This document shows, piece by piece, positions 23,024 through 42,730 of a stretch of 44,315 bases of DNA; the first letter of the stretch is position 1, and each line of letters begins with the position of its first letter. Below the pieces are notes generated by a model that was not told the DNA's origin, ran no database searches, and saw nothing but the letters and a program-made list of their open reading frames with translations. The translations under genes and the position numbers were made by a program. Where the stretch lies: contig NYZA01000171.1 in assembly GCA_002686955.1 (NCBI GenBank), forward strand, positions 1-44,315. The letters are read 5' to 3'. This DNA comes from Gemmatimonadota bacterium (GTDB lineage Bacteria > GCA-2686955).

Positions 23024-24568
23024 TCATTCCCATTCGATGGTGGACGGCGGCTTCGACGAGATGTCGTAGACCACTCGATTGACTCCGCGCACCTCATTGA
23101 TGATCCGCGCCGAGATTCGCGCCAGAAGATCGTAGGGCAGCCGGGTCCAGTCCGCGGTCATGGCGTCGGACGAGTCGACCGAGCGCACGGCGATCACGTT
23201 TTCGTATGTGCGCTCGTCCCCCATCACGCCGACGGTCTGAACCGGTAGGAGGACCGCGAACGACTGCCAAATCCCCCGATAGAGCCCCGCGCGCTTGATC
23301 TCGTCGACCACGATATGGTCCGCGTCACGCAGGATATCGAGACGTCGCCGCGTGACGGCTCCCAGAATCCGCACCGCCAGACCCGGCCCGGGGAAAGGTT
23401 GACGCCAGATCAAGCTCTCGTCGAGATCGAGCTCGGAGCCCAACGCGCGAACTTCGTCCTTGAAGAGCTCGCGCAGAGGCTCCACTAGCTCGAGTTTCAT
23501 CCGCTCCGGCAGTCCACCGACATTGTGGTGGCTCTTGATCGTCGCCGACGGGCCCTTGAACGACACAGATTCGATCACGTCGGGGTAGAGAGTTCCCTGC
23601 GCCAGATACCGAAAACCCCCGAGGCGGGCCGACTCCGCTTCGAACACTTCGATGAAGGTCGCTCCGATGATCTTCCGCTTTCGCTCGGGGTCGACGACGC
23701 CATCGAGAGCACCCAGGAATCGATCCGATGCGTCGACGCTCACTAGGTTCAGGCCCATTCGCTCCTTGTAGCGCTCCCTGACCTGTTCGGCTTCATTCAG
23801 GCGTAGCAGACCATTGTCGACGAAGACGCAAACAAGGCGATCGCCGATGGCCCGATCGAGCAAGGCGGCGGTCACGGTAGAGTCGACCCCCCCCGAGAGG
23901 GCTAGAAGCACCCGATCGTCTCTTCCAATTCGCTCGGCGAGCGCTTCGACCTGTCGCTGCGCATAGGCTCCCATCGTCCATGTGGGAGCACAATTGGCGA
24001 CATCGTGAACAAAATGCGCCAGCATTTCGATGCCGCGTGGAGTGTGGTTGACTTCGGGATGAAACTGTACGCCGAAGAAGGCACGGTCGGGGTCTTCCAT
24101 CGCCGCGATTGGAGAGGAGTCGTTCCACGCTACCGCGAGAAATCCCGGCGGCGCCTGGTCCACCCGGTCGCCATGGCTCATCCATACTTCGATCTCTTCA
24201 CCCATATCTGCGAAGAGTGATGTTTTAGGATCGACAAATAGTGATGCTGGTCCAAACTCCCGATTCGAGGCGGGCGCAACCTCTCCGCCGAGCATCCGTC
24301 CCATGACTTGGAGCCCGTAACAGATTCCCAAGATCGGCAGCCCCAGTTCGAAGATGTCTCGATCCGGCATGGGACTTCTCTCCGCCAACACGCTCGCAGG
24401 TCCGCCCGAGAGGATCAGCGCCGCGGGTGCGCGGGCACGGATCTCGGCGGCAGAAGTGTCGTAGCGTACGAGCTCGCTGCGAACGTGCAGCTCCCGCACC
24501 CGGCGCGCGATCAATTGACTGTACTGCGCACCGAAATCGAGTATGAGGACGGTCTTGTGATTTGTCAT
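23024..24568 (-). CDS. guaA: GMP synthase (glutamine-hydrolysing)
   Basis: A 514-aa GMP synthase, the usual length. The glutamine amidotransferase domain has [18 protein letters not shown], the nucleophile in LGICYGLQ, and FHPEVNHT. The synthetase domain has the PP-loop LSGGVDSTV. The C-terminal dimerisation domain ([16 protein letters not shown]) is complete. It converts XMP to GMP using glutamine and ATP, the last step of GMP synthesis. It lies 33 bp downstream of purH in the same direction, an operon that joins the two branches of purine biosynthesis. Confidence 0.97.
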
Positions 24569-24601: not shown

Positions 24602-26170
24602 TCAATGAAGAAAATGGCGCTTGCCCGTGAATACCATCGCGATGCCGTGCTCGTTCGCGGCCTCGATCGTCTCGTCGTCGCGCTTGGAGCCGCCGGGCTG
24701 AACGATCGCCTGCACGCCGGCCGCGTGAGCCTCGTCGATTCCGTCGCGGAAGGGAAAAAAGGCGTCGGAAGCGAGGACGGCACCAGCGGTATCGTGATCG
24801 TGCGTGTGGGCATTACGCGACGCGATCTTGACCGAGTCGACCCTGCTCATCTGTCCTGCACCAACGCCGATCGTCCGCGTGCCGGCGGCAAGAACGATGG
24901 CGTTCGACTTGACATGACGACATACTTTCCAAGCGAATGAGAGCGCGTCGAGCTCCGCCGCGCTCGGTGAGCGGGCGGTCGCGACGCTCCAGGCGCCGGT
25001 GTCGTCGGCCGGGATGTCGCGCTCCTGCATCAGATAGCCGCCCGCCACGGTGCGTAGCTCGAATCCCTCCGGCCCGCGCCCGGATCCGGCACGCTCGGCG
25101 ATCGCGGGAAGCTCGATCAGGCGGATCGCCTTCTTTTTCCGGAGCAGAGCGAGCGCGTCCGCTTTGAAGGCGGGCGCGATGACGGCCTCGACGAAGGTGC
25201 TCTTGATCCGCTGTGCCGTAGCCTCGTCGACCGCGCGATTGAGGGCCACGACCGAGCCGAAGGCGGAGACCGGATCGCCGAGGCGAGCGGCCTCATAGGC
25301 ATCTGCCGGAGAGGCCGCGGTGGCACAGCCCGAGGGATTGGCGTGCTTCATCACGGCCGCGGCCGGTTCGCTGAACTCGATCGCGAGTGAGAGGGCAGCG
25401 GAGAGGTCGCCGAGGTTGTTGAATGAGAGCTCTTTGCCGTGGAGCTGCCGCGCGGCCGAAAGAGCGAGCGGATCGTGGCGGCCGTCATCGTAGAATGCGG
25501 CTGCCTGGTGGGGATTCTCGCCGTAGCGAAGAGTCTGCACGAGTCGAAGGGGCACTCCGAGCTCGTGGGGAAGCGCGGGTGCGTCGAAACGTCGGGCCAG
25601 ATCGAGGGAGATCGCTCCGTCGTAGCGCGCGGTGTGCCTGAAGGCGGCCAAGGCCAAGCGGGCGCGTAGCTCGGTGTCGACCTTGCCGGCTTCGAGGCGC
25701 TCGGCAACCTCGTCGTACTGGTCGGGCGATGTCACCACGAGCACGTACGGAAAGCTCTTGGCCGCGGCACGAATCATGGCGGGACCGCCGATATCGATGT
25801 GGTCGAGCGCATGATCGAGATCGCCGGAGCAGCTCGCATCATCGAAGGGGTAGAGGTTCACCACCACCAGATCGATCGGCGCGACTCCCAGACGCTCCGC
25901 GTCGGCCATGTCGCCGGCGTCGTCCCTCCGCTGCAGGATCCCGCCATGGATCTTCGGATGCAAAGTCTTCACCCTCCCCCCCATCATCTCGGGCGCTCCG
26001 GTGAGATCGCTCACCAGACGCACGTCGATTCCCGCTTCGCCGAGCCCCTTGGCCGTACCTCCACTCGAGATCAGCTCGATCCCCAAAGCGGCGAGACGAC
26101 GCGAGAAGTTTTCGATTCCCGACTTATCGGACACGCTCAGAAGTGCGCGCTCGGCTGTGAACACGTGCAT
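24602..26170 (-). CDS. purH: Bifunctional AICAR transformylase/IMP cyclohydrolase
   Basis: A 522-aa enzyme with an N-terminal MGS-like IMP cyclohydrolase domain ([43 protein letters not shown]) and a C-terminal AICAR formyltransferase domain, including KHANPSGCA and [10 protein letters not shown]. It carries out the last two steps of IMP synthesis, using 10-formyl-THF. GGAGA precedes the ATG very closely; an in-frame GTG at 26164 is better spaced and could be the true start, two codons later. It follows the HflK-like gene by 35 bp on the same strand and precedes guaA. Confidence 0.97.
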
Positions 26171-26205: not shown

Positions 26206-27147
26206 CTAGCCCTCGATGAAGATCCTCCGCCTTTTCCCGTCTTGCGAAGGCTGGATCACCTTCGTGCGGGTGCGGGGCAGCACCGACTCTATCGTCTCGA
26301 GCCAGATTCGTCGCCTTGTTACTCGCGGGTTCTTCGCTGCCTCGCGGGAGAGCTCGGCGAAGCTCCGTGCGGCTCCCCGTGCCCGCCCCAGAAGATCGCT
26401 GCGATAGATCTCGGCGTCTCGAATCAGGCGGTTGGCATCGGCCCTCGCGACTGGAAGAGTTCGATTCGCGTCTCCGCGCGCCTCGGTAATCGTGCGCTCC
26501 CGGTCGGCCTTCGCGCTCGAGACGTCGTTGAATGCGCCGATCACGGCGGCAGGTGGTGACACTTCAACGATGTTGAGCGCGACCACCCGCAAGCCGAGAT
26601 GCAGACTGTCGAGCACCGTCTGCACCTCGTCGATCGCATCGATCTGAAGCTGCACTTTTCCGATCGAGAGCACATCGTCGATTTCCCGTTTCGCTACCAA
26701 ACCGGCGAATACGGTCTCACCGGCCTTTCTCACCGCGAATTCCCGCCGTTCGTCACCGATCGGATCCGCCATGCCGAAGAGATACTCCGCGGGATCGCTG
26801 ATGGTGTACTGAATCGTCGCTTGCAGCTCAACGATATTTGTATCGCCGGTCAGCCATTGTACTTCGTCATCGGTCGGCTTCAGCCCCCGCGCCTTTTCGA
26901 CGAGCCGAAAGCCGATCGGCATCGTGCGCACTTCGGTCGTGCTGACTCGGATCAGTGTCTCGAAGGGCCAAGGCAGTGTGACGCTCATACCCGAGGGAAC
27001 CACGCGAGTGACCGCTCCGAAACGGAGCACGACGCCCGATTCGTTCTTGCTCACCGTCCAGAGCGAGGTCCAACCGGCGAGCACTACGAGTCCGATCGCC
27101 AATATCGCGGCGCTCACTCTCGCTCCCTTTCGCGCTTGCTTCGCCAT
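26206..27147 (-). CDS. SPFH/band 7 protein, HflK-like (second of two)
   Basis: A 313-aa membrane-anchored protein: basic N-terminus, one span (AILAIGLVVLAGWTSLW), then an SPFH domain with VSKNESGVVLRFGAV and the HflK-type block QWLTGDTNIVELQATIQY. A coiled region rich in Arg/Glu/Ala follows (ADRERTITEARGDANRTLP). HflK and HflC form cages around FtsH in the membrane and modulate its proteolysis. Its ATG directly follows the stop of hflC, whose last codons contain GGAG. This is the third SPFH protein in a row, beside an HflC and a permease-HflK fusion. Confidence 0.85.
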   Translation of the reverse strand: MAKQARKGARVSAAILAIGLVVLAGWTSLWTVSKNESGVVLRFGAVTRVVPSGMSVTLPWPFETLIRVSTTEVRTMPIGFRLVEKARGLKPTDDEVQWLTGDTNIVELQATIQYTISDPAEYLFGMADPIGDERREFAVRKAGETVFAGLVAKREIDDVLSIGKVQLQIDAIDEVQTVLDSLHLGLRVVALNIVEVSPPAAVIGAFNDVSSAKADRERTITEARGDANRTLPVARADANRLIRDAEIYRSDLLGRARGAARSFAELSREAAKNPRVTRRRIWLETIESVLPRTRTKVIQPSQDGKRRRIFIEG

Positions 27148-28035
27148 CTACTCCCCGCTCTCCGGGCTCTGCAATACCTGGAGGAGCTCATGATCTGCAG
27201 GCAGAATCACCGTCGATTTGACCCCCAATACCTCGTCCAGCACTTCGAGCGATCTGAGGAATCGGTATAGATCGGGGTCTTTGCCGTACGCATCGGCATA
27301 GATTCGGGCGGCTTCCGCGTCGGCCTCCCCCCGCAACTCTCGGGCCTTTCGATCGGCCTCCGAGAGCAGCTTGGCTTCGACAAGATCGGCATCGGCCTTG
27401 ATCTTCTGGGACTGCTCGAGACCCTCCGAACGGAAGGCGGCCGCGAATGCCTTGCGCTCGGCTTCCATCCGTTGGAAGACGGCCTGCTTGTTCTGCGGCG
27501 GGAAATTCAGTCGCTTGATCCGGACCGAGCGAACCCTGATCCCAAAGCTCTGCTCGGCCTTGTCCCTAGCAACCCGCGTTACCTGATCGACGATGTCGGC
27601 CAGATCGACATTTCGGGGCTCGTGCGACACCAAGTCGCTGAAATCGTGAGAGCTGAGCACATCACCCACGACCGAGCGCAAAACATCGGTGAGGCGCGCC
27701 TCGGCACCGGCCCGACTCTCGACGCTGACCATGTATTGGATCGGATCGTTCACCGACCAGGCGAGGAAACTGTCGACGATGACGTTCTTCTTGTCGAGTG
27801 TCAGATACTCGTTCGGTGTGGGATCTAGCAAGTTCACACGGCCATCGATATGAACCACTGTTTCGACTGGCGAGGGCAGTTTGAAACCGAGACCGGCCCG
27901 GGCGGCCGTCCGCAGGGGCGCGCCGAAACGCTGAACGACCGCGAACTGGTTCTCGCCCACGATGAAAGTGCAGCTTCGGACCAAAGTGATGGCTACCGTC
28001 AACGATACACATACAAAAATGATTCGTTTCAGCAC
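27148..28035 (-). CDS. hflC: Protease modulator HflC
   Basis: A 295-aa HflC with an N-terminal span (MLKRIIFVCVSLTVAITLV), the SPFH domain starting FIVGENQFAVVQRFG, and the near-invariant block RIKRLNFPPQNKQAVFQRM. The GEADAEAARIYADAYGKDP region is the usual coiled-coil/C-terminal part of HflC. It lies 11 bp after the permease-HflK fusion. HflC works with HflK as a large periplasm-facing cage that regulates FtsH; the paired HflK here is the C-terminal half of the fusion or the next gene. Confidence 0.92.
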   Translation of the reverse strand: MLKRIIFVCVSLTVAITLVRSCTFIVGENQFAVVQRFGAPLRTAARAGLGFKLPSPVETVVHIDGRVNLLDPTPNEYLTLDKKNVIVDSFLAWSVNDPIQYMVSVESRAGAEARLTDVLRSVVGDVLSSHDFSDLVSHEPRNVDLADIVDQVTRVARDKAEQSFGIRVRSVRIKRLNFPPQNKQAVFQRMEAERKAFAAAFRSEGLEQSQKIKADADLVEAKLLSEADRKARELRGEADAEAARIYADAYGKDPDLYRFLRSLEVLDEVLGVKSTVILPADHELLQVLQSPESGE

Positions 28036-28046
28036 TTCCTACTCCC

Positions 28047-30107
28047 TCACGGACCGAACGGACCTCTGGTAGCGGCCCGCAGGCCTCGTTCTTCCGAGGT
28101 CAAGACTACATCCACATCATGATCGAGCACGAACACCGAGCGGGATCCTCGCAAGCTGAGCTCGGCGGCCTCCATTCGCAATCGGAACCGCGTGATTCGA
28201 TCGCTCTCGGCCATTACGTCTCGAATACCGACGAATGCAGCCACCTCTCCCTTAGCGCCGTCTATGGTCTTTGCTTCGTCGGCTTCCGCGAGTCGCTCAG
28301 AAGTGTGGGCGGATGCCCTGGCCTGAGCGACCCGCTCAATCCTGTATTTTTCCGCTTCAATGATCTGCCGCTCTTTGTCTTCGAGGGAGCTCGCAACATC
28401 GCGAAAGGCTTCGTGCACATCGGCAGGCGCGTGGATGTCGAGCAGATTCACCGCTACCACCTCGATACCAGCACCGATTCCATCGAGCTCCACCTGAAGT
28501 GAGCTTGCGACCTCGGCCTCTAGCGCGGGGCGATTCGCGACGAGAACTTCGCTGGCTGTACGGTGCGCAGCCATGCGACGGAGGCTGGCCTCGGCCAGAA
28601 AACGGATCGATCGCTCAGGAGCGGCAACGCCAAAACGGAAACTGTAGGGATCCGCGACCCTGTAGTGGACCGTGGCTCCTATCTGGAGCACGTTTTCGTC
28701 GCCGACCATGACCTCGGTCGGCGCCACCTCGATCTCGCCCGGGAACGGTGAGCGCCCGAGCGTGTCCGCCCGCGCCGGTCCCAGAGCGAATCCGCGAATC
28801 TCGTCCGAACGGACCCGCTCTACGTGGTCGATCGGGTAGGGAAGATGCCAATGGAGTCCGGGGGATTCGAGCACCTTCTTCACGGCTCCGAAGCGGAGCA
28901 CGAAACCGGTTTCGCCGGCGCCGATCGCAGTGAGGCCGCTCGATGCCCACAGGACCACGAGGATCGAGACGGACACGAATCGGGAAGTGCGCGAAGTCGG
29001 GTCGATCCCGATGGGAGCGAAGAGGCGCCGCAGATCCCTCGCGAAACGGCGGGCAAGATCGAGTTCGATCGAATGCCGCAGCAACAGGCCCGCGAGCGCC
29101 AAACCGCCCGCGATCGACAACCAACCCAGCTCCTCCGGCGGGCGGATGATCGCCGATGGCTCGATTCGAAGTGTCGCGTACACTCCGTTCAGAAACCAGC
29201 CCATGACGAGGGCACATGCCGCGATCGAGCCGAGATAGACGAAGAGAACACGCTTTCCGAGAAGGTTCTTGACGATATTCAGTGTGGCGATGTTCGTCGC
29301 CGGACCAGCCAGGAGAAAAACGAGCGCCGCCCCCGGGTCGAGCCCCTTCGCCACGAGTGCGGCCGCCACCGGAGTGCTGGCGGTCGCGCAGATGTAGACC
29401 GGAATACCGACGGCCAGCATCGCCAGCATCGAAATCCACCCGCCGGGCAGTTGATCGCCGATGAAGTTCTCCGGAATCAGCACCATGATCAGCGCCGAGA
29501 GGACGAATCCGAAAACGAAGGAAGGCGTAAGGTCTGCCATCAGGGGGCCGAAGGCGTAGCGGGCGGCCGCCCAGCTCTTGCCGCTGAAGCCGATGGCATT
29601 GGGTTCAAGCCCGCCGGAGTCGTCGGATCGATCGTTCGTCGCGCAGTCGCAGCCATCCTCTTCCGACTCCGTGGCGGTGTTCTCGTCCCATCCCCTCTTC
29701 TCTAGTGTATTGACCAAGCTCCCCGCCGTCATCGCCGTGACCAGTGCAGAGATCGGTCTCATGATCGTCATGACCGGGTCCATCAGGGCCCAGGTGACCC
29801 CGATCGAGTCGACGCCCGTCTCGGGTGTGGAGATGAGAAACGATGTCGTCGCTCCTTTGCTCGCACCGGAACGCTTCAGAGCGACGGCGGTCGGAACGAC
29901 GGAGCAGGAACAGAGCGGAATCGGAACTCCGCAGCAAGACGCGATCGCCACCGACCGCATATTGCTCTTGCCGAGGTGCTCGAAGACCTTGTCCTCCGGG
30001 ATCAAGATCTTCAGATAGCCCGCGATGAGGAAACCGATGACGAGGAAAGGCCCCGACTCGCAGAGCACGACCCAGATCGCCAGCAGCCAGTCGGTGACGA
30101 GAGGCAT
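28047..30107 (-). CDS. SO_0444-type Cu/Zn efflux permease fused to an HflK-like SPFH domain
   Basis: A 686-aa fusion. Residues 1-350 are a multi-span permease of the PF03773/SO_0444 type: ASCCGVPIPLCSCSVVPTAV carries the CxC metal motif (Cys66, Cys68), TSFLISTPETGVDS follows, and the second repeat has AGPATNIATL. An acidic, Cys-containing loop (EEDGCDCATNDRSDD, about 149-163) separates the two halves. A further span (about 377-397) is followed by an SPFH domain, GETGFVLRFGAVKKV, with coiled coil to the end (HflK-like). The ATG at 30107 is the permease start. Its permease half probably exports Zn or Cu; the SPFH half would tie it to FtsH control. It follows the ZIP gene with touching ends. Confidence 0.82.
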   Translation of the reverse strand: MPLVTDWLLAIWVVLCESGPFLVIGFLIAGYLKILIPEDKVFEHLGKSNMRSVAIASCCGVPIPLCSCSVVPTAVALKRSGASKGATTSFLISTPETGVDSIGVTWALMDPVMTIMRPISALVTAMTAGSLVNTLEKRGWDENTATESEEDGCDCATNDRSDDSGGLEPNAIGFSGKSWAAARYAFGPLMADLTPSFVFGFVLSALIMVLIPENFIGDQLPGGWISMLAMLAVGIPVYICATASTPVAAALVAKGLDPGAALVFLLAGPATNIATLNIVKNLLGKRVLFVYLGSIAACALVMGWFLNGVYATLRIEPSAIIRPPEELGWLSIAGGLALAGLLLRHSIELDLARRFARDLRRLFAPIGIDPTSRTSRFVSVSILVVLWASSGLTAIGAGETGFVLRFGAVKKVLESPGLHWHLPYPIDHVERVRSDEIRGFALGPARADTLGRSPFPGEIEVAPTEVMVGDENVLQIGATVHYRVADPYSFRFGVAAPERSIRFLAEASLRRMAAHRTASEVLVANRPALEAEVASSLQVELDGIGAGIEVVAVNLLDIHAPADVHEAFRDVASSLEDKERQIIEAEKYRIERVAQARASAHTSERLAEADEAKTIDGAKGEVAAFVGIRDVMAESDRITRFRLRMEAAELSLRGSRSVFVLDHDVDVVLTSEERGLRAATRGPFGP

Positions 30108-30922
30108 CAAGCTCCCACTCCGTGCATGAGCATCGTAACGGCCACTCCGGCCGCAAGCAGCGACACTTTTGCCAGGCTGTCCTCGCGATGGTGGAAGACC
30201 TCCGGCAGGAGCTCGCCCACGCACACGAAAAGAAATGTACCGGCGGCGAGCGCCGTGACGATGGTCATTCCGGCTTGGCCGAGGTGGGTCGTCGCCGCCC
30301 CTCCGACGAGGAGCCCGATCGGTGTGATGGTCGAGAAGACCGCGATCAGCATATGAATTCGAGCTCGCCGCATCTTGCCGAGCAGGAGAACCGACGCCAG
30401 TGAGAAGGAATCGAAGATCTTGTGCGCGACCATGGCTAGGAGCAGAGTGCCGACGAGCAGGCCGCGCCCGGCCATCACCGCCAGCGCCAGCCCGGCGGTG
30501 AATGAGTGGACCGAAAGCCCGACGAGCGCCGCATAGCCGACCGCGCGGTGACGGTGAAGATCGTCGTGGTCGTGGGTTCGCAGAACCAGCGCCTCGATCA
30601 GATAGACACCGAGGACCCCGAGGAGCACGAAGAACCAGGCGCGGTCGCCTCGAACCAAGACCGAGAGCTTCCCCTCGGAAGATGAGTGCGCGGGGGGGGA
30701 TTCTTCAAAGGAGCGGGCTTCGAGAACCGAGGCTTCCCAATGGTGGCTATGCGCATCGCCGGCGGCGTCGAGCGAGGGGAGCAGATGAAGAAAGACCGCG
30801 CCCAGGAAGATGCCGGTGGAAAACGCGAGCGCGACATGGAGAAGGCGCTCGGTCCACCGAACTCGGAGAGAAACGAGGCCTCCGAACAAGGTTGCGAGGA
30901 AGAGGATTGCGGCGTCGAGCAT
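30107..30922 (-). CDS. ZIP family metal transporter
   Basis: A 271-aa ZIP (zinc/iron permease) protein with about eight spans. The metal-site helices are recognisable: GLSVHSFTAGLALA for helix IV and MVAHKIFDSFSLASVL for helix V, where the family usually has HxxxDG and HExPHE-like residues. A His-rich cytosolic loop (THDHDDLHRHR) lies near the middle and another (DAHSHHW) near residue 65. The ATG at 30922 is preferred to a TTG at 31000, which would overlap the regulator gene by four bases but gives a Ser/Pro-rich non-homologous start. Its stop meets the permease-HflK start at 30107. Confidence 0.85.
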   Translation of the reverse strand: MLDAAILFLATLFGGLVSLRVRWTERLLHVALAFSTGIFLGAVFLHLLPSLDAAGDAHSHHWEASVLEARSFEESPPAHSSSEGKLSVLVRGDRAWFFVLLGVLGVYLIEALVLRTHDHDDLHRHRAVGYAALVGLSVHSFTAGLALAVMAGRGLLVGTLLLAMVAHKIFDSFSLASVLLLGKMRRARIHMLIAVFSTITPIGLLVGGAATTHLGQAGMTIVTALAAGTFLFVCVGELLPEVFHHREDSLAKVSLLAAGVAVTMLMHGVGA

Positions 30923-30996
30923 CTCGTCGATCGGGCTGCCTGTGCGGTGGCGATGGAGCAAAGGCGGCAGGGTAGCAGATCGGGTCGAGGTGGAGC

Positions 30997-31320
30997 TCAA
31001 GTGTGCGTTCCCGTGGGCCGCAACGCATCCTCTTCCGCGACGTGCGTCAGGGCATCGGATGCGATATGGGCGACGTGGTGGTCGGCCAGGGAATATACGA
31101 TCTCTCGGCCGCGGCGCTCACCGCGGATCAGTCGTGCGGTTCGCAAGACGCGAATATGTTGTGAAACCAGGGGTTGCGGCAGATCAAGCCTCCTCACCAG
31201 ATCGTGAACGCAGGCGCGCTCTTCCGACAACCGGAGCAGAATCGCCAGTCTGCGGGGGTTCGCCATCGCCTTGAAGAGCTCCGCAGCGGCCCCGATCGTC
31301 TCAGGCGAAGAATCCTTCAT
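30997..31320 (-). CDS. ArsR/SmtB-family metal-sensing repressor
   Basis: A 107-aa winged-helix regulator. The DNA-reading helix is LPQPLVSQHIRVLRTARLI and the wing RGERRGREIVYSL. The last helix reads DHHVAHIASDALTHVAEE: taking its first Asp as position 0, His lies at +2 and +13 and Glu at +16, exactly the spacing of the alpha-5 zinc ligands Asp104, His106, His117 and Glu120 of SmtB. The helix-2 type CxC site of ArsR is absent. So zinc (or cobalt) sensing is likely. It heads the ZIP and permease-HflK operon. The ATG has no ribosome site and the predicted transcription start falls on it (possible leaderless mRNA). Confidence 0.9.
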   Translation of the reverse strand: MKDSSPETIGAAAELFKAMANPRRLAILLRLSEERACVHDLVRRLDLPQPLVSQHIRVLRTARLIRGERRGREIVYSLADHHVAHIASDALTHVAEEDALRPTGTHT

Positions 31321-31355
31321 ATGCGTATATTAGCATGTTCGCATGTTACGGCAAG
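31321..31355 (-). promoter_or_regulatory. Candidate promoter/operator of the metal-responsive operon
   Basis: On the minus strand TTGCCG (31354-31349) and TAATAT (31332-31327) form a -35/-10 pair with 16-bp spacing, placing initiation at about 31320, the first base of the regulator's ATG. An inverted repeat ATGCG (31321-31325) ... CGCAT (31340-31344) surrounds the -10 box, a suitable place for SmtB-type repression. Confidence 0.45.
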
Positions 31356-31420: not shown

Positions 31421-34024
31421 ATGCGAAGATCGATTCTGCTTCTGGTCGCCGCGGCCTTCGTCGGTACGGCGATCCTGCTCGCGGTGCTCGATTCGCAGCA
31501 ACTTCGAGAGAACGCCCGCGCCTACGGTGAGACGAAAGATCCGAAACGCCCTGCCGAGAGCGAATGGATCAAGCGCACATTCCCTCACTTCGACGCTGCT
31601 CCCAGCGCGGTGGCCGAGATGATCGGCCAGGCGCAAGCCCACCGTGCCAGGCCGAAATCCCACTCCGCCGACTACGGCGCCTGGGAGTTCGCGGGGCCTA
31701 CCAATATCGGGGGGCGGATCACCGACATCGAATTCAATCCCAGCGACGGCAACACCGTCTACGCGGGAGCCGCCACCGGCGGTGTTTTCAAGTCGACCGA
31801 CAAAGGGAATACCTGGGCTTCGATCTTCGACGACCAGGCCGCACTTTCGTGCGGAGATATCGCGGTCGATCCGAACAGCACTCAGGTGCTCTATGTTGGA
31901 ACCGGCGAAGCGAACGGAGGTCACAACAATTTCCCTGGTGGAGGCGTCTACAAGTCGACCGACGGGGGAACAAGTTGGACGTTGAAAGGGCTCGAGACAA
32001 CGGCATCGATCGGGCGGGTCGCGGTCGATCCCGCGAATTCCAACCGGATATTCGTGGGCGCTGTTGGTTCCTACTTTTCGCCGGCACCGGAACGTGGGCT
32101 CTATCTCTCTGAGGACGGTGGAGAAACCTGGGATCTCTCGCTCTTCGTCTCCGACAGCACGGGTTGCGTCGATGTGGCGGTCGATCCGAGCGACCCGAGC
32201 GTGGTTTTCGCCGCGATGTGGGAACGTGTGAGGCGCCCGAACTCCTCTCACCTTTTCGGCCCGACCGGAGGACTCTTCCGATCGCAAGATGGCGGAGATA
32301 CATGGATTGAGCTCACCGGTGGGCTGCCCGATCCCGACTCTGAACAGATCGGACGAATCGGGATCTCGATTCACGAATCCGATCCAAGCATCGTTTATGC
32401 GCTCTACAACGACGGCGCCGACTACGTAGGCCTCTATCGCAGTAACGACGGAGGAGATAGTTGGATCGATGCCGATCCGGCGAAGAGATTGGACGACGGC
32501 ACGGCGGGCTTCAGTTGGTACTTCGGGCAGGTGCGCGTGCACCCGAACGATCCTGATATTGTGTACGCGCTCGATGTGGCGTTCAGTCGATCGACCAACG
32601 GAGGATCGTCATGGCCGATCATGTATGGCTATGGCGGGCCGCCGATCCTGCATGTCGATCATCACGCTCTCGCCTTTCATCCGGAGGATCCGTCCTATCT
32701 CGTCGAAGGAAACGACGGAGGCATCAATATTTCAACCAACGGCGGCCAGAGCTGGAGCAAAGTCGCGAGTCTTCCTGTGACACAGTTCTATGAGATCGGC
32801 CTCGATACGCAACGACCCGACAGACTCTACGGAGGCACGCAAGACAACGGAACGCTACGGACCGTGGCGGGAGCGATCGACGACTGGGAGGCGATCTACG
32901 GGGGAGACGGCTTCTATGTGAATGTCAATCCCGAGGACTACAGAGAGATCTATGCGGAATCACAATTCGGGTTCCTGGGGAAGACCACGAACGACGCGGC
33001 GAGCTGGAGCTACGGGGTGTTGACCGGTATCAACCCCTCGGAATCTACTAATTGGTCTACTCCTGTGGTAATCGCTCCGAGCGATGGAAACACGCTCTAC
33101 TACGGAACCGATCGCGTCTATCGGAGCACCAACGGCGCCGGCGTCTGGAGCGCGATCAGCGATGATCTCACCGATGGGCTGCCGGATACGCGCCTGGGCA
33201 CGGTTACTACCATCGCGGTCGCGCCAACGAATGCCGGCGTGATCTGGGCGGGCACCGATGACGCTCATGTGTGGGTTACGACCGATGGAGGCGGCATTTG
33301 GAGCGATGTGTCATCAACGCTGCCGACCCGCTGGGTCACGCGCATCGCCGTCGACCCGATCGACGATCAGGTTGCGTACGTCGCGTTCTCCGGTCTGAAA
33401 TGGCACGACCCGGAACCTCATATCTTCAAGACGACCGACAGTGGAGAGAATTGGAGCGACATCAGCGACAATCTGCCCTCCATTCCGATCAACGCGCTCG
33501 CGATCGACAACCAGGATCCGGACGTGATTTTCGTCGGCACCGACGCGGGCGCATGGGTGAGCACCTTCGGCGGCGGGCAGTGGGAGGTGCTGGGAAGCGG
33601 ACTGCCCTTGGTCTCGATCTACGACCTGAAGGTACATCCCACGGAGCGATTCCTCGTCGCGGGGACTCACGGGCGGTCGATGTACAAGCTCGCGCTTCCT
33701 GAGGGAGTGAATGTGGAGGAGAGAGAGGAAGCGACCGTCGCCGGGCCGATGATCCGCCTGCATCCAGGCGCACCGAACCCATTCAACCCTTCGACGACGA
33801 TTCGTTTCACGCTCTCGGAGGCGGGAGCGGTGCGGCTGACGGTCTATGATGCCGCCGGTAGGAAGGTGCGGATGCTGCTGGATGAACGAAGGGCCGCGGG
33901 GGAATACGCGAGCCGCTGGGATGGCAAGGACGATGCCGGTCGAGGCGTGGCTTCGGGGCGCTACTTGGTTGTGCTGGAGGCGTTGGGGCGGAGGGAGACG
34001 GGGAGTTTGGTCTTGGTGGAGTAG
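31421..34024 (+). CDS. Exported beta-propeller (VPS10/BNR-like) protein with FlgD-like C-terminal sorting domain
   Basis: An 867-aa protein starting with a signal-like hydrophobic segment (MRRSILLLVAAAFVGTAILL). Repeated blocks of the type VYKSTDGGTSWT, LYLSEDGGETWDL, LFRSQDGGDTWIEL and HIFKTTDSGENWSDI are Asp-box/sortilin-type propeller repeats covering most of the chain. The last 90 residues are an FlgD-like type A sorting domain (PGAPNPFNPSTTIRF ... YDAAGRKVRML ... LVVLEALGRRETGS). That tail is characteristic of secreted proteins of FCB bacteria and suggests export across the outer membrane. GAGGAA precedes the ATG. Its ligand or catalytic function is unknown. Confidence 0.88.
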   Translation: MRRSILLLVAAAFVGTAILLAVLDSQQLRENARAYGETKDPKRPAESEWIKRTFPHFDAAPSAVAEMIGQAQAHRARPKSHSADYGAWEFAGPTNIGGRITDIEFNPSDGNTVYAGAATGGVFKSTDKGNTWASIFDDQAALSCGDIAVDPNSTQVLYVGTGEANGGHNNFPGGGVYKSTDGGTSWTLKGLETTASIGRVAVDPANSNRIFVGAVGSYFSPAPERGLYLSEDGGETWDLSLFVSDSTGCVDVAVDPSDPSVVFAAMWERVRRPNSSHLFGPTGGLFRSQDGGDTWIELTGGLPDPDSEQIGRIGISIHESDPSIVYALYNDGADYVGLYRSNDGGDSWIDADPAKRLDDGTAGFSWYFGQVRVHPNDPDIVYALDVAFSRSTNGGSSWPIMYGYGGPPILHVDHHALAFHPEDPSYLVEGNDGGINISTNGGQSWSKVASLPVTQFYEIGLDTQRPDRLYGGTQDNGTLRTVAGAIDDWEAIYGGDGFYVNVNPEDYREIYAESQFGFLGKTTNDAASWSYGVLTGINPSESTNWSTPVVIAPSDGNTLYYGTDRVYRSTNGAGVWSAISDDLTDGLPDTRLGTVTTIAVAPTNAGVIWAGTDDAHVWVTTDGGGIWSDVSSTLPTRWVTRIAVDPIDDQVAYVAFSGLKWHDPEPHIFKTTDSGENWSDISDNLPSIPINALAIDNQDPDVIFVGTDAGAWVSTFGGGQWEVLGSGLPLVSIYDLKVHPTERFLVAGTHGRSMYKLALPEGVNVEEREEATVAGPMIRLHPGAPNPFNPSTTIRFTLSEAGAVRLTVYDAAGRKVRMLLDERRAAGEYASRWDGKDDAGRGVASGRYLVVLEALGRRETGSLVLVE

Positions 34025-35028: not shown

Positions 35029-35847
35029 TCATGTGGCGGCCCCCTTCCATGGCTCTCCAGGTAGTCGACGGACCAACGACTCATGGACGACGTCCCAGGC
35101 GCGGCCGGTGTCGTACTCCAAGTCGGGTCGCAGCAACGGGGCAATGTCATCGACGAACAGAGCGTCGTCCAGCTTCGCCGCCATGTTCGCCTCGAACTGC
35201 GCCCGCGTGGCGGCGGTATCCACGAAGGCCATGTAGTCTGTGAAGCAGCGAACGATCTCATTCGGATCGACATCCTGCTCCGTCAGGGCGAGCCAGAGGT
35301 CGAAGAGGTCGCGACCCTTCTTACGCTGGTACAGAGCTCGCATCTTGGTGCCGAGCAGTTCAGCGAGGCTGTACGTCGTAACATCGGCCTCGCCCGAAAA
35401 CCACGGATTCGCCACCGTGTACTCACGCCGTAGTAGACCGAGAACGCTGAAGTGCTCACGGGTGTTGATCTCGACCTTGAGGCGCATCCGCACGACGGGG
35501 ACGAAGGTGGTGTCGAAGCGATAGTAGAGGGTGAATCGCCCCTCGCCCTGCTTCCACTTCGGCTTGCCGAGCCATGGGTCCAGCGCCTCGCGAATAGCGT
35601 CGATCAGACCACCGATGGGCCCGGCCTCACGCTGCACGAGATCGATGTCTTCGGAGTAGCGACCAGGCGGGTCGAAGAATAGCTTGTGCAGAGCGGTACC
35701 ATCGCGAAACACGGCATGCTCCCCGACGGCAGGACGCTCGTGCATGGCGACCAGGGCACGACTGAGGAGGAGATCCTGTTCGACCTGGGTGTTGTCGGGC
35801 CACGGGGCGGCAGTGCGCCAGGCCGTGATGTTCGCGCGTGGGATCAT
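35029..35847 (-). CDS. abiEii: AbiEii nucleotidyltransferase toxin
   Basis: A 272-aa member of the AbiEii/MenT nucleotidyltransferase family. Diagnostic blocks are VFRDGTALHKLFF, PGRYSEDIDLV (the two catalytic acids), the RMRLKVEINTRE strand, and the QRKKGRDLFDLWLAL helix. Type IV toxin-antitoxin toxins of this kind act by nucleotidyl transfer and cause abortive infection. The ATG at 35847 overlaps the stop of abiEi by four bases (ATGA). It is the downstream member of the pair, as usual, and the enzyme is complete. Confidence 0.9.
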   Translation of the reverse strand: MIPRANITAWRTAAPWPDNTQVEQDLLLSRALVAMHERPAVGEHAVFRDGTALHKLFFDPPGRYSEDIDLVQREAGPIGGLIDAIREALDPWLGKPKWKQGEGRFTLYYRFDTTFVPVVRMRLKVEINTREHFSVLGLLRREYTVANPWFSGEADVTTYSLAELLGTKMRALYQRKKGRDLFDLWLALTEQDVDPNEIVRCFTDYMAFVDTAATRAQFEANMAAKLDDALFVDDIAPLLRPDLEYDTGRAWDVVHESLVRRLPGEPWKGAAT

Positions 35848-36638
35848 AGGTCGATGTCCACCTGTTCGTTGGGAACCAGTCGCCAGCACTGGTCGGCCTC
35901 AATCTCGCCAGCCGGCTGGTCGGTCCGCAGGCGCACCACGCTTGTCCGCCGCTTTGCCAACCAGTGAGCCAGCGGTTCCGCGAGGTCGCCTTCTCCAACG
36001 GCGGTGATGAGGTATCCGAGCCGCTGAACATCGGGCAGCCGAACGTGCGGGGCGACCGCCACGAGCCGGTCACCATCGATCTTCTCAGCCAACTCGGAGA
36101 GCACGGTTGCGACGTTGTTCCAGTGGCCCGCCGCCGAGAAGAACCGGACCAGGTCGAAGGCGGTCGTCTCCGGCGTCGCGACAGCCATGGTCCCCGTCTC
36201 CGTGTCGACTCGATTGACCGGCATCGCCGCAACAGCCTTGCTGGCATGCACATCGATCCGGACCCTGCCGGCGTGCATTGGCCTGGTCGCACGATCGGCG
36301 ATGACCTGGAACACCATCGGCTGTTGGTGCCCGGCCCCATGGAGCGCGGCCGCGCTCAGGATTCCCACGTAGTAGTCTCTCCCAAGGTGTTTCATCAGAT
36401 CGTCGATGAACCACGACGCTGGCGGGCAACCGGCCGCGCGGTACTCCGGCGGGGCGACGACGTAGAATCCACGACGCGGCGATGCGATCCGTCCCTTCTG
36501 CTTGAGCCGCCGAAGGGCCGTTTGAACCGCAACCTCGGAGCCTCCGAGGCCCGCTTCGACATCCGCGCGAGTGAAGACATACCGGCCCGAGGCCTGCTGT
36601 TCCTCCACCCACTCGGCTATGGTTTTCGGGCTGGTCAT
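35844..36638 (-). CDS. abiEi: AbiEi antitoxin/repressor
   Basis: A 264-aa AbiEi with an N-terminal winged helix (FTRADVEAGLGGSEVAVQTA and LRRLKQKGRIASPRRGFYVV) and a C-terminal domain containing YYVGILSAAALHGAGHQQP, PVNRVDTETGTMAVATPETT and AFDLVRF. AbiEi neutralises AbiEii and represses its own operon by binding inverted repeats. The ATG at 36638 is preferred to a TTG at 36644. A perfect inverted repeat at 36661-36675 lies 22 bp upstream in a well-formed promoter. The pair sits beside IS66 relics, a typical mobile defence context. Confidence 0.9.
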   Translation of the reverse strand: MTSPKTIAEWVEEQQASGRYVFTRADVEAGLGGSEVAVQTALRRLKQKGRIASPRRGFYVVAPPEYRAAGCPPASWFIDDLMKHLGRDYYVGILSAAALHGAGHQQPMVFQVIADRATRPMHAGRVRIDVHASKAVAAMPVNRVDTETGTMAVATPETTAFDLVRFFSAAGHWNNVATVLSELAEKIDGDRLVAVAPHVRLPDVQRLGYLITAVGEGDLAEPLAHWLAKRRTSVVRLRTDQPAGEIEADQCWRLVPNEQVDIDL

Positions 36639-38037: not shown

Positions 38038-40029
38038 CTACAGATCGAGAATCCCGGCCACTACCCCCTCATCAAGATCCCCGCCCAACTGAATCCGCGC
38101 CCCACCCAAGAAGCCCACGACTTCATCGAGCCCACAACCACGCCGCACCGAAGCCAGCAACAGATCTTCAGGAACACCGCGCCGCCAAGGCCCGGCCTGC
38201 GTCAACTTCGCCAGGCGACCCAGCTTGTCCTTGATGAAGGGCTCCACCGCGGCTTCGGTCACTACCGGTAGCCGGGGCGAACCGCCCGCGAGCGACACTG
38301 CGTACGGGCTCGAATCTATGACGGCGCCCGCGCCCATCATCTTCGCCAGTCGATCGAGAAAGAAGAGAGAGCCGACCGTCCCCAATCCGTGCAGCAATAC
38401 CGTCGCTCCCGCGATGCTCACTTGCCCCACGCTACCCGTCGCCACTCCCAGCGATTCGACTACCGCTCGGCCCAGCTCGAACGAGACACTCGGTGAGCCG
38501 GAGGGGCGGAAGCGCGCGGGGTTTGCTCCTTCGGCCGCATCGGTGAGGATTCGGTCGTCCGTCGTCTTCACGATCCGACGATCGCGACCGCCCACGGCGA
38601 TCTTGCGCGAGTCGGCCGCGGCGATTGTTCCGACGATCTCTCCGGTGATCCTGTCGACCACATCTACGGTCGCCGGATCATCGATGTTGGAGTGCAGGCT
38701 TCCGCGTCCGTAGCGCTGCTCGATCGCCTCGGAAGCGACATATCGATCGCTTCCGGCGCTCTCGAGTAGCTCCTTGTCGACCATTCGCTCGAGGAGCGCT
38801 TCGCAAGCGCCTTCCCCCAGCTCGTCGAGAATCTCGGGCGGTAGAACACGCTTCAGATCTTCGAGACGCACGTAGCTTCCCTCACAAGCCAGCACCAGCG
38901 CCTGCTGCACGACGATCGAGGGACGAAATCCGTATGGCGACGCACATAGACGGCCCTTCTTGCCCAACCTGAACATGGTCTGGAAAAGGTGTCTCTCCGC
39001 CTCGGTCTCGACGACGTAGCCGCAACGCGTCGTATCGCCGCGCCGTCCACCCCGACCGAGACGCTGCATCAGACTCGACACGTCGGCGGGAGGGTCGGTC
39101 AGCAACACATAATCGACCGTCCCGATGTCGATCCCCAGCTCCATGGTCAACGTCGCGAAGCAGACCGCGGCCGGCGCCTGATGAAAGAGGCGCTCGGTAC
39201 GTTCGCGGGTGGCTTTCGCCAACGATCCGTGGTGAGCGAAGATCTCTTCGCCGAAACGGGTACGGTTGCGCAGCTTCGCACTGAAGATCTCGACCTGATT
39301 TCGGGAGCGACAGAACACCAACATCTTCTTGATGCCGTGCCGTGCGAGCTCGTTCAAATGGACGGCTACATGCGACGGAGATCGACCCTCGAACACCTTC
39401 CCGAAGATCTTGCGGATTCCCGGCACCACGATCAGCTCGGCATTCGCCAGATAACGCCGACCCAGCTCCTCGGGCCGATCCACCGTGGCGCTCGCGGCGA
39501 CCCGTTGCGGTCGCGAGTCGGCGCCAGCTTCGAGCCTATGTAGCAGAACCCGCAGCTGGTCCCCGCGCGGTGTGTCGTCCAACACATGGATCTCGTCGAG
39601 CACCACGACGCGAACGCCGCGCAGAGCGGCCGGCCGTCGAGCCAGCAACGAATCGACCGCCTCGGGCGTCGCGATCACGACCGAAGGCAGCTTGCCGCCA
39701 ACCCACTCCTTGTGCTCGCCGGTGTAGCGACCGAACGACACATCGACCAGCCCCATAGGCCCATCGAGACGCCGCCGGAGATCGTTGACCAGGGCGCGTG
39801 TGGGCGCGATTACCAGAACGCGAGCGCTCGCGGCCCCGAAACGGCGCACCATCTCGACGGCCGGCGCCGCATACGCTTCTGTCTTTCCACTGGCGGTGGC
39901 CGAGCACATCAGCACGTCGCGCCCCTCCAGGATCGCTGGGATCGCGCGCTGCTGCACTTCGGTCAAGCGGGAGAAGCGCGAGAACCACGGACCGAAGGTG
40001 AAGGGCAGCGAACGCCGGTCGACGGTCAC
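38038..40029 (-). CDS. Lhr/BrxHI-like SF2 helicase
   Basis: A 663-aa superfamily 2 helicase. Motif I is SATASGKT (residues 43-50), Ia APTRALVNDL, II DEIH (145-148), III SAT (180-182), IV MLVFCRSRNQVE, V FATLTMELGIDIG and VI QRLGRGGRR. The accessory C-terminal half (about 375-663) begins in a winged-helix-like region (RLEDLKRVLPPEILDELGEG) as in Lhr-type enzymes. GTG at 40029 is preferred to GTG at 40047 because it overlaps the upstream stop by four bases (GTGA). It is the last gene of a four-gene operon with two P-loop ATPases. In type 2 BREX a similar helicase (BrxHI) accompanies BrxD. Confidence 0.85.
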   Translation of the reverse strand: MTVDRRSLPFTFGPWFSRFSRLTEVQQRAIPAILEGRDVLMCSATASGKTEAYAAPAVEMVRRFGAASARVLVIAPTRALVNDLRRRLDGPMGLVDVSFGRYTGEHKEWVGGKLPSVVIATPEAVDSLLARRPAALRGVRVVVLDEIHVLDDTPRGDQLRVLLHRLEAGADSRPQRVAASATVDRPEELGRRYLANAELIVVPGIRKIFGKVFEGRSPSHVAVHLNELARHGIKKMLVFCRSRNQVEIFSAKLRNRTRFGEEIFAHHGSLAKATRERTERLFHQAPAAVCFATLTMELGIDIGTVDYVLLTDPPADVSSLMQRLGRGGRRGDTTRCGYVVETEAERHLFQTMFRLGKKGRLCASPYGFRPSIVVQQALVLACEGSYVRLEDLKRVLPPEILDELGEGACEALLERMVDKELLESAGSDRYVASEAIEQRYGRGSLHSNIDDPATVDVVDRITGEIVGTIAAADSRKIAVGGRDRRIVKTTDDRILTDAAEGANPARFRPSGSPSVSFELGRAVVESLGVATGSVGQVSIAGATVLLHGLGTVGSLFFLDRLAKMMGAGAVIDSSPYAVSLAGGSPRLPVVTEAAVEPFIKDKLGRLAKLTQAGPWRRGVPEDLLLASVRRGCGLDEVVGFLGGARIQLGGDLDEGVVAGILDL

Positions 40030-41456
40030 GCCCGTCCGACTCGGCACGCGCGGAAACGGTCGGCGTCGAAGAGCAAGACAGTGGCGCGAACCGCGTCTCT
40101 AAAGCTGTCCTCACCGCGATCGTTGGCCTTGGCGATCCGCTGGCGAGCCGCCATGCTCAAGTCGCGGGTGATCTTGTGCTCCGGGTAGGCGCGCTGGTAG
40201 ATCGCCGCAATACGACGCACGAGATCCGGCAGTAGCTCGGAGCGCAGCGGCGCGAGATCGATACTGTACGCCTTGGCGTGAGTGACGGTGGAGAAGTACC
40301 CGCGGATCTCATCGAGCGGGGTCAGAGCGAATACCGTACACAGAGGCTGATTCCCGCGGAACTTCAGGGGCAGTTCGCGATGGACCTTGTGCCCACCCCG
40401 ATAGAGCAAGTCGGGTTCGAAAGCCAGATCGCCGGGCGGTATTGTGACGGCCGCGTAGTGCTTCAAGACCTCGAGGGCATAGCGCCGAGCGACGAGCCCG
40501 AGAGCATCGACCCGCTCTACCTCGTCGAAAAGGAGCACGAGTCCGCGCAATCCGGCGTCGCTGTACCAAGTGGCCAAGGTGCCGACGAGGTGGACGTACA
40601 TCCGCCCGAAGGTGCGAAAATCGGACATCGTCAGCATGCGCTTGCCGCGCCAACCGGCACGTGCTGCGACGTGATTGACCTCCTCTACGTTGACGGGCTC
40701 TCCGGCCACATAGTCGCGCACCAAGTGAGCCAACCGCGACTCGCGCCGCAAGACCTTCAAGTAGGGACTGAAGAACCTGCTCGCTCGCCGCCCCTCCCAG
40801 TCGTGGTGCATCGGGCTGTCGATGAGCTTCTCGAAGAGCCAATCGAGCCCCGAGCCGACCTGGTCCGGCACACGCACCGAAGCGGCGATCCGCCGGTAGA
40901 GCCTGAGGGGGTAGTGCAACGCATTCTCTCGCGGATCGAGAGTGATGCGCGCGGTCGCGAAGCCCCGTTCCAGGGCGAGCTGCTCGGCGGCCTCGAGCAG
41001 ATGGGTCTTGCCGCTGCCGTAGTCTCCCCACAGAACTCTGCATCCACGCTCTTCGTTCAGCATGGCGCTCAAGCTCGCCAACTCGGGCTCCCTGGCCACG
41101 GTGTACTCCCGAATCCCCCTGGCCGGCACCACACCCAAACGAAGTGCCTCGAGAGTCTGCCAGGCGTGGCCGGTCTCCGGCCCCGATGGCGACGGTGGTG
41201 GAGCAGGAGCAGGCAAGGCCCCGTTGACCCCGTTGGCCCCGGACGGCGGGCGCGAAAGCACGACGCCATCGTCTTCGGCTCGCTTCCGCGCCGACTCCGC
41301 ACTGAAGTCGAACTCGATCTCGCGGAGCTTCAGGGTCTTCGGCAACGAAGGGGAGGAATCGAAGGCGACGCGCGCCGCCTGGTAGGCCAGCCTCTGCTTG
41401 ACCACGCCTCTGCCCCACACGGCGTGAATCACCCGGTCGCCCCGTTTCAGCTTCAC
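40026..41456 (-). CDS. BrxD/DUF2791-like P-loop ATPase with N-terminal tudor-like domain
   Basis: A 476-aa ATPase. Residues 1-50 (LKRGDRVIHAVWGRGVVKQR) look like the CarD/UvrD-type tudor fold that binds nucleic acid or RNA polymerase. A Pro-rich linker (about 68-95) leads to the ATPase: LGVVPARGIREYTVAREPEL, Walker A WGDYGSGKTH (144-151) and Walker B GLVLLFDEVERVD (306-312), the pattern of BREX ATP-binding (DUF2791) proteins. The GTG start at 41456 shares one base with the upstream stop (TAGTG). It precedes the helicase gene with a GTGA overlap. Confidence 0.8.
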   Translation of the reverse strand: MKLKRGDRVIHAVWGRGVVKQRLAYQAARVAFDSSPSLPKTLKLREIEFDFSAESARKRAEDDGVVLSRPPSGANGVNGALPAPAPPPSPSGPETGHAWQTLEALRLGVVPARGIREYTVAREPELASLSAMLNEERGCRVLWGDYGSGKTHLLEAAEQLALERGFATARITLDPRENALHYPLRLYRRIAASVRVPDQVGSGLDWLFEKLIDSPMHHDWEGRRASRFFSPYLKVLRRESRLAHLVRDYVAGEPVNVEEVNHVAARAGWRGKRMLTMSDFRTFGRMYVHLVGTLATWYSDAGLRGLVLLFDEVERVDALGLVARRYALEVLKHYAAVTIPPGDLAFEPDLLYRGGHKVHRELPLKFRGNQPLCTVFALTPLDEIRGYFSTVTHAKAYSIDLAPLRSELLPDLVRRIAAIYQRAYPEHKITRDLSMAARQRIAKANDRGEDSFRDAVRATVLLFDADRFRACRVGRA

Positions 41457-42730
41457 TAGAACTCGACCTCGTCCGGCATCAGCTCCGCACCCTCTTCCGC
41501 CCCGGCGTCGGCCAGTCGCAGGACCTCCTCGGACGAGAGCAGTCGCTCCCCATCTCGACGCTGAGCATCGAGGAGTGTGACGGCCGCCTTTACGAAGGTC
41601 CGGCGTGTTCCCGACTCGAAGGAGCGCTCCCCAAGCTCACTCGCAAGCGCGGCCAGGTTTCCCTTCTGCGTAGCTTGGTCGTACTCGTGGTCGAAGCCCG
41701 GCGTCGCAATCTCCAGCAACCGCTCTCCGATCGCTTGCAGGAGCTCCGTCGCGCCGAGCGGAAGATGGTCCAGGTCGATGACCGGTTGCATGGGGCTCGC
41801 CCCGGAGAAATGCTGCGCCAACTTCAGCCGCTGGGCCAGCGCCGGATACTCGGGCACGACGGTGTCCATGAACTCCGGCGGCACCGCGTAGCACCAAACC
41901 ACACCGGGCAGCATCGACTGGCCGCAATAGTCGATCATCTGCCGCAAGTTGTCGCCCATAGCCCGTCGCCGGCCGGCGCTCAGGCTCATGTTGCGGTCCA
42001 TCTCGTCGAACATGAGCACGACGCCGGGCAGTCCCAGAGCGGCCAGGACTTGAGCCAAGCTGCGCAGCCAGCGGAACGCGCATTCGTCGCTCAAGACCTC
42101 GCGCAACCGGAACCCGGAGAGCTCCTGCCTCGGCAGATCATCCCCCAGCAGATAGTCGCCGAGCATCTCTTCGTCATCTAGCTCATCGGTCGCGACCGCT
42201 TCGAGGAACATCCGCACTCCGCGGCCGAAGGCTCGGCTCTCGATGTTGCTGCGAGCGAACTCCGTCTCCAGCCACTCCAGGAACGCCTTGGCGCCGCTCT
42301 GGGCGACGCGCTCCTCGGCGACCTGACGCAACACCCGCTCGATCCCCTGACTCGGCTCGTCGTCCAGCTCCTCGACCGGCAGCTCGAGCCGCCGAGCGAC
42401 CTCACGGTAGATCGCGACGGGCCGATCGAAGGGACACTCCTTGGGCGACAATCCGACCAGCGCCGTAACGAAGCCTTCGCTCCAGGCCATCTCTCTCAGA
42501 CAGTGCAGGAATTGTGTCTTGCCCCCCCCGAAAGGCGCCTGCACTAGTTTGAACGTGGAGTTGCCGACCGATCTCTTCAGGGGAATCAGGTACTCTCGAC
42601 GCAACAGATCGAGCAGCTCACCGGTCGCCACATTGACCGCTTGGGCACCGCGTTCGGGGGGCTGACCCGTGCTGCCCATCCGGTCGAGAATGTGCCGCGC
42701 CAGCTCCGGAGTCATCTTGGGCGGGTTCAT
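41456..42730 (-). CDS. BrxC/BrxD-like P-loop ATPase
   Basis: A 424-aa ATPase with Walker A APFGGGKTQ (residues 65-72) and Walker B VVLMFDEMDRN (237-243). The stretch AVNVATGELLDLLRREYLIP precedes the P-loop. A methionine and arginine pattern (AGRRRAMGDNLRQMIDYC) follows Walker B, and FMDTVVPEYPALAQRL resembles the sensor region of BREX ATPases. It is related to, but clearly different from, the next ATPase. The ATG at 42730 overlaps the stop of the first gene by four bases (ATGA); the open frame upstream to 42862 lies inside that gene. Two such ATPases side by side may form a hetero-oligomer. Confidence 0.78.
   Translation of the reverse strand: MNPPKMTPELARHILDRMGSTGQPPERGAQAVNVATGELLDLLRREYLIPLKRSVGNSTFKLVQAPFGGGKTQFLHCLREMAWSEGFVTALVGLSPKECPFDRPVAIYREVARRLELPVEELDDEPSQGIERVLRQVAEERVAQSGAKAFLEWLETEFARSNIESRAFGRGVRMFLEAVATDELDDEEMLGDYLLGDDLPRQELSGFRLREVLSDECAFRWLRSLAQVLAALGLPGVVLMFDEMDRNMSLSAGRRRAMGDNLRQMIDYCGQSMLPGVVWCYAVPPEFMDTVVPEYPALAQRLKLAQHFSGASPMQPVIDLDHLPLGATELLQAIGERLLEIATPGFDHEYDQATQKGNLAALASELGERSFESGTRRTFVKAAVTLLDAQRRDGERLLSSEEVLRLADAGAEEGAELMPDEVEF

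Follow-up and report, generated by a model that had tools for sequence, protein, structure and literature searches.

Transporters fused to an HflK-type protein recur beside HflC and a second HflK in distant bacteria, suggesting that some metal pumps are built into a membrane cage

What bacterial SPFH membrane patches contain is an open question that is usually approached by co-purification. A locus from Gemmatimonadota bacterium (GenBank assembly GCA_002686955.1) raises it in genomic form, as a metal transporter and an HflK-type SPFH protein are encoded there as a single polypeptide. The window analysed here is the whole contig NYZA01000171.1 (C171, 44,315 nucleotides) of an assembly of 4.28 Mb in 270 contigs that is 84.5% complete. 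A preliminary description, made from the letters of the DNA, had placed five minus-strand open reading frames (ORFs) at positions 26206-31320, and the ORF list, Pfam and NCBIfam all bear these out: an ArsR/SmtB-type sensor, a ZIP transporter, a permease::HflK fusion (K1), HflC and a second HflK (K2), each of whose products exceeds curated cut-offs. The same description saw a metal-responsive operon with three HflK/HflC-type proteins, coupling metal export to the membrane protease FtsH. Three such proteins are indeed present, although they can be specified further, the first and third being of HflK type and the middle one HflC. The question that this locus raises is whether these SPFH proteins hold a metal exporter and, if so, whether FtsH takes any part.

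Both halves of K1 pass their curated thresholds within one ORF (NF033936, 375 bits against a cut-off of 300; hflK TIGR01933, 162.6 against 159.4). The CxC permease fused to SPFH that had been described is present, its motif reading PLCSC, and the pattern PLCSC ... STPETGVDSI is identical to that of unfused SO_0444 relatives. A sister genome (G001, Gemmatimonadetes bacterium, JALXCG010000145.1; locus L017, where L numbers are our locus labels) carries ZIP, fusion, HflC and HflK in the same order as the window, next to the same BNR protein, with 60% identity over the full-length fusion and an intact HflC (L017 5347-6324). Conservation of the operon in relatives, which the preliminary description had considered, thus extends to four genes in this same-family genome and does not include ArsR. 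When genome contigs were searched with the SPFH part, only the sister fusion and canonical hflK-hflC pairs were recovered. In so fragmented a metagenome assembly, genes adjacent by chance, a misassembly or a frameshift might be thought to have produced the fusion and the operon, but the identical fusion and order in independent genomes and families rule this out, leaving it a negligible probability.

The same arrangement, [transporter::HflK]-HflC-HflK (K1-C-K2), was found at 31 loci with three kinds of N-terminal transporter: the SO_0444 permease (12 loci), CDF (18) and EamA (1). The order is complete in 30 of the 31; the remaining locus, L134, runs off the end of its contig, and another contig of that genome begins with a matching HflC-HflK2 pair (L161). 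CDF domains were assigned by Pfam match (PF01545) in L136-L143, L149, L170, L171 and L178, and by local phmmer only in L172-L176 and L179. The one EamA-type module is the second module of the window genome itself (L009:11634-15810, contig C137), in which an EamA domain with 10 or more transmembrane helices is fused to HflK and followed by HflC and HflK. Because fusion and trio order recur in distant genomes, the arrangement is beyond chance, and the module is well supported as a genomic entity.

A fusion profile run over 241 genomes spread across the domain recovered the full-length permease::HflK in eight further genomes, along with HflK domains in unusually long frames elsewhere, and 18 genomes of this sample carry a permease or CDF module. 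Another sample, 297 genomes belonging to the same phylum as a Desulfobacterales genome, yielded 10 modules in 9 genomes, one of which has both the permease and the CDF type. Named carriers include Candidatus Tariuqbacter arcticus (L170) and a conjugative plasmid of Aquibium oceanicum (L149, NZ_CP018172.1), the latter being the one module found in plasmid searches. On that plasmid a two-component system, CDF::HflK, HflC and HflK are followed by a PpiC-type isomerase and an HMA P-type ATPase, and K1 is publicly annotated as HflK alone, the fused CDF having been missed. Among the matches listed for 369 Gammaproteobacteria there was no module or CDF fusion, and the extra HflK loci checked in that class were canonical-like pairs. 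Also rejected were the long open frames of L144, L181 and L182, which encode canonical HflK, and the plasmid matches inspected in Azospirillum, Tistrella and Pontibacillus, which are canonical pairs. In two permease-type loci the fusion is preceded by an additional HflC gene of the module type (L130:9763-10677 and L132:3991-4899), and these two copies group together (SH-aLRT 98). A different SPFH-transporter adjacency was seen in several records of Vibrio plasmids, where hflC directly precedes and overlaps nhaA (for example L192, Vibrio diabolicus NZ_CP014093.1).

In a maximum-likelihood tree of 63 HflK-type domains, from which two long-branch modules were left out, K1, K2 and canonical HflK fall into three distinct groups (bootstrap/SH-aLRT 96/90, 92/88, 95/90), and a tree of 47 HflC proteins splits module from canonical sets at SH-aLRT 99. 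Over 30 modules, the pairwise distances within K1, C and K2 correlate with one another at Mantel r 0.90-0.92, against a maximum of 0.21 after shuffling, indicating that the genes of the trio travel together. On the concatenated tree the transporter type requires few changes, so the exporter appears to have been swapped only a few times, and the trio is best read as an ancient HflK/C paralogue set. The covalent fusion, its recurrence with two families known to export metals and the joint evolution of the three genes strongly support the earlier proposal that a metal exporter is coupled to HflK/C-type proteins.

The permease, CDF and EamA fusions examined share one plan, in which the transporter leads through an Arg/Lys-rich linker into one transmembrane helix, as in HflK; the positive-inside rule would then place the linker in the cytoplasm and the SPFH domain in the periplasm, where E. 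coli HflK has it. The SPFH part of an AlphaFold2 model of K1 is confident (pLDDT ~90) and matches E. coli HflK (7vhq, 9cz2), and its sequence matches HflK 7vhp at E 1e-27. Both HxxxD metal-site motifs are retained in 9 of 9 CDF fusions examined, and since the permease motifs are kept as well, the fused transporters look functional. It is conceivable that the HflK domain is a mere oligomerisation or stabilisation tag, for example replacing the CDF C-terminal domain, with HflC and K2 as passengers and no cage. Consistent with a tag, the match of the CDF fusions to their family is confined to its membrane domain, the SPFH part sits where the C-terminal domain would be, and it is constant while fusion partners vary. 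However, every complete locus has HflC and K2 next to K1, and all three co-evolve equally tightly (r ~0.9), which suggests an obligate hetero-assembly of K1, HflC and K2, and we regard a simple tag as quite unlikely.

The reading that we favour, at a probability of roughly 0.55, is that the operon encodes an exporter-tethered periplasmic SPFH scaffold, that is, an HflK/C paralogue set with an attached metal exporter. K1, HflC and K2 would probably co-assemble into an HflK/C-like ring or cage with its SPFH walls in the periplasm. The permease, joined covalently to K1 by a short cytoplasmic linker and the HflK membrane helix, would be clustered at the membrane patch of the cage and would export a Zn/Cu-type metal into the periplasm there, concentrating export at one patch. 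ZIP may be a metal partner of permease-type modules, and in this genome the SmtB-type repressor would probably open the operon at high cytoplasmic metal. Shewanella requires SO_0444 for growth under Zn or Cu stress (PMC3219624), and a Nitratiruptor gene of the SO_0444 family is induced by Cd and Cu (PMC10092412).

The HflK/C-like proteins could instead serve FtsH-coupled quality control, either bringing the exporter to FtsH for metal-controlled proteolysis or modulating FtsH nearby. The HflK and HflC family names come from FtsH modulators, the genome has one FtsH, and in E. coli HflK/C forms a nautilus-like assembly that surrounds FtsH and admits membrane substrates (PMC12048511). Yet module HflK and HflC fall outside the canonical groups and were not found to be orthologous to the FtsH modulators, the window genome has its own canonical hflK-hflC pair (L010) and an unlinked ftsH, and several other module-bearing genomes also keep a canonical pair. 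ftsH adjoins none of the 31 module loci (394 kb scanned). The coupling to FtsH that had been put forward is thus unsupported; the separate canonical pair in this genome weakens an FtsH link without disproving FtsH binding, and we consider this explanation unlikely.

The sensor (NF033788, 91.9 bits against a cut-off of 55; PF01022 also matched) has the exact SmtB alpha-5 ligand spacing attributed to it, its D/H/H/E residues aligning column by column with the four ligands of SmtB (1r1t), D104, H106, H117 and E120. Its best match among solved structures, 8qkf, is named just ArsR family regulator. Known SmtB-type sensors derepress in metal excess, and control of the operon by metal through this sensor is plausible for this genome only. 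The ZIP protein (PF02535, 107 bits against 35.1) retains the histidines of HSFTAG and HKIFD on comparison with the TM4/TM5 (transmembrane helix 4/5) binuclear metal site, and these motifs presumably differ from the classic ZIP ones. ZIP genes adjoin 5 of the 31 module loci, all of permease type; they precede the module in the window and L017, follow K2 directly in L131 and L133, and in L135 come ~1.8 kb after K2, with a gene for a heavy-metal-associated domain behind.

ZIP, permease and SPFH scaffold might therefore form a site of metal uptake or trafficking, for acquisition or cofactor delivery, like the P. aeruginosa hmtA-SPFH cluster (PA2434-2439), which is induced by zinc depletion and whose HmtA is described as an importer (PMC4542158). 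Some CDF-type modules (L136, L139, L142) lie near genes for Mrp/NUBPL-type iron-transfer NTPases or NifX-like (Nitro_FeMo-Co) proteins, which hints at a link to metal-cofactor assembly. However, CDF proteins are exporters, and the sensor in the window belongs to the type that responds to excess. The permease family likewise exports (SO_0444, PMC3219624), and we give uptake or trafficking a small chance.

Returning to the exporter-tethered scaffold, several observations weigh against it. A quick 83-row tree, although it keeps canonical HflK as one group, needs two changes each for K1 and K2 (a single K1 clade is compatible with it, p-AU 0.683), and the length and similarity of the proteins partly guided the choice of module and canonical rows. 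In the AlphaFold2 model the permease half is of low confidence (pLDDT mostly <60), providing no usable permease model; with just two sequences covering it, this part is not reliable. As ZIP proteins mostly import metal, one fits poorly into an operon for efflux. The EamA family is not a typical group of metal exporters, and the common theme may thus be wider than metal. Finally, the ArsR gene occurs at the window locus only and is missing at the sister locus and all other module loci (31 loci scanned), which confines sensor control to this genome; the earlier term metal-responsive operon is accordingly plausible here and does not carry over to the other loci.

The nearest precedent is the P. 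aeruginosa hmtA locus PA2434-PA2439, which comprises a P-type ATPase and three SPFH genes annotated as HflK/HflC-like (PMC4542158, PMC11761036). Like the module, it combines three SPFH genes with a heavy-metal transporter in one operon, whereas its P-type ATPase is separate, described as an importer and Zur-controlled, and no fusion is reported. Its SPFH genes are induced 9-14 fold in a zinc-starved znuA mutant (PMC4542158), and Zur binds the PA2439 promoter in vitro (PMC8531726). A three-SPFH operon, PaFlo5-6-7, which we infer to be PA2437-2439, has been described without discussion of the transporter (PMC13086221). The module resembles E. coli HflK-HflC (7vhp, 7wi3, 9cz2) in domain models over cut-off, a single transmembrane helix with a periplasmic SPFH part and the predicted SPFH fold, and differs in having two HflK types, one with a transporter, in its separate phylogenetic position and in showing no FtsH link. 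Standard SO_0444 members (NF033936) share the curated domain and both permease motifs with K1 but are ~350-390 aa long and lack an SPFH domain. CDF (Cation_efflux), the alternative N-terminal domain of the sister modules, has the same HxxxD motifs, but in the modules SPFH follows the membrane domain instead of the usual cytoplasmic C-terminal domain. Human stomatin bound to aquaporin 1 (PDB 9zd2), retrieved as a fold match, is by its title likewise an SPFH assembly holding a membrane transport protein, although non-covalent, eukaryotic and of the stomatin subfamily. A classic survey of SPFH proteins makes no mention of transporter fusions (PMC2636767), and we found no report of HflK fused to CDF or another transporter in the open-access literature, subscription papers falling outside this search.

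In the module the client, a metal exporter, is covalently part of an SPFH subunit, and three transporter families occur on the same trio, so confinement of a transporter by an SPFH cage becomes directly testable. As the same trio recurs in many distant bacteria with different pumps attached, our data suggest that metal pumps are in some bacteria an integral part of a membrane cage. More tentatively, and with less confidence than in the scaffold itself, the loci may represent a widespread and hitherto undescribed kind of SPFH cage whose transporter is built in and can be exchanged, in which a dedicated periplasmic K1-HflC-K2 chamber over a membrane patch receives the exported metal; if so, the chamber would separate toxic metal from the remaining periplasm or hand it to partners. 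The module adds a third kind of HflK/HflC-annotated protein, which current annotation hides, as in the Aquibium fusion, and gives a context in which the zinc-regulated three-SPFH cluster of P. aeruginosa can be read.

Coordinates of the module and associated features in the window
Feature	Position	Strand	Basis
ArsR/SmtB-type metalloregulator, 107 aa; alpha-5 site D-x-H-x10-H-x2-E	30997..31320	-	PF01022, NF033788, alignment with SmtB 1r1t
ZIP-family transporter (HSFTAG ... HKIFD type)	30107..30922 (ORF open to 31000)	-	PF02535; start judged from the L017 orthologue
Fusion K1, 686 aa: SO_0444-type permease, then HflK-type SPFH protein	28047..30107	-	NF033936 and TIGR01933 in one ORF
K1 permease domain (ArsP_1), motifs PLCSC and STPETGVDSI	29193..30065	-	PF03773; motifs common to unfused SO_0444 permeases
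K1 HflK-type membrane anchor after arginine-rich linker (predicted cytoplasmic)	28923..28979	-	Hydropathy and charge; helix 373-389 in AlphaFold2 model
K1 SPFH (Band_7) domain, predicted periplasmic	28347..28925	-	PF01145, 83.8 bits; matches HflK 7vhq (model) and 7vhp (sequence)
Module-type HflC, 295 aa, one transmembrane helix	27148..28035	-	TIGR01932, 192.6 bits (cut-off 134.4); apart from canonical HflC, SH-aLRT 99
Second HflK-type protein (K2), 313 aa	26206..27147	-	TIGR01933, 195.6 bits (cut-off 159.4); K2 group distinct from K1 and canonical HflK
Possible ArsR operator, imperfect palindrome ATGC-N8-GCAT, touching the arsR start upstream	31319..31338		By eye; weak

The five genes are closely spaced: ~74 nt separate ArsR from ZIP, 11 nt separate the fusion from HflC, HflC and HflK abut, and the likely ATG start of the fusion overlaps the ZIP stop by one base (TGATG). 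Co-transcription is suggested by this spacing only, as no sigma-70-like promoter was found at the locus and terminator-like sites were no commoner than chance. The candidate operator palindrome was not returned by a repeat search at 7 nt or longer. The flanks are unrelated, with a BNR/sortilin-type repeat protein upstream on the plus strand (31421-34024) and the purine genes purH (24602-26170) and guaA (23024-24568) downstream. Elsewhere in the window, an AbiEii-type nucleotidyltransferase toxin lies at 35029-35889 (PADLOC, 351 bits), and a DEAD helicase (BrxHI/SngC-like) with two BrxC/BrxD-type ATPases at 38038-42862 resembles part of a BREX- or Shango-like defence island.

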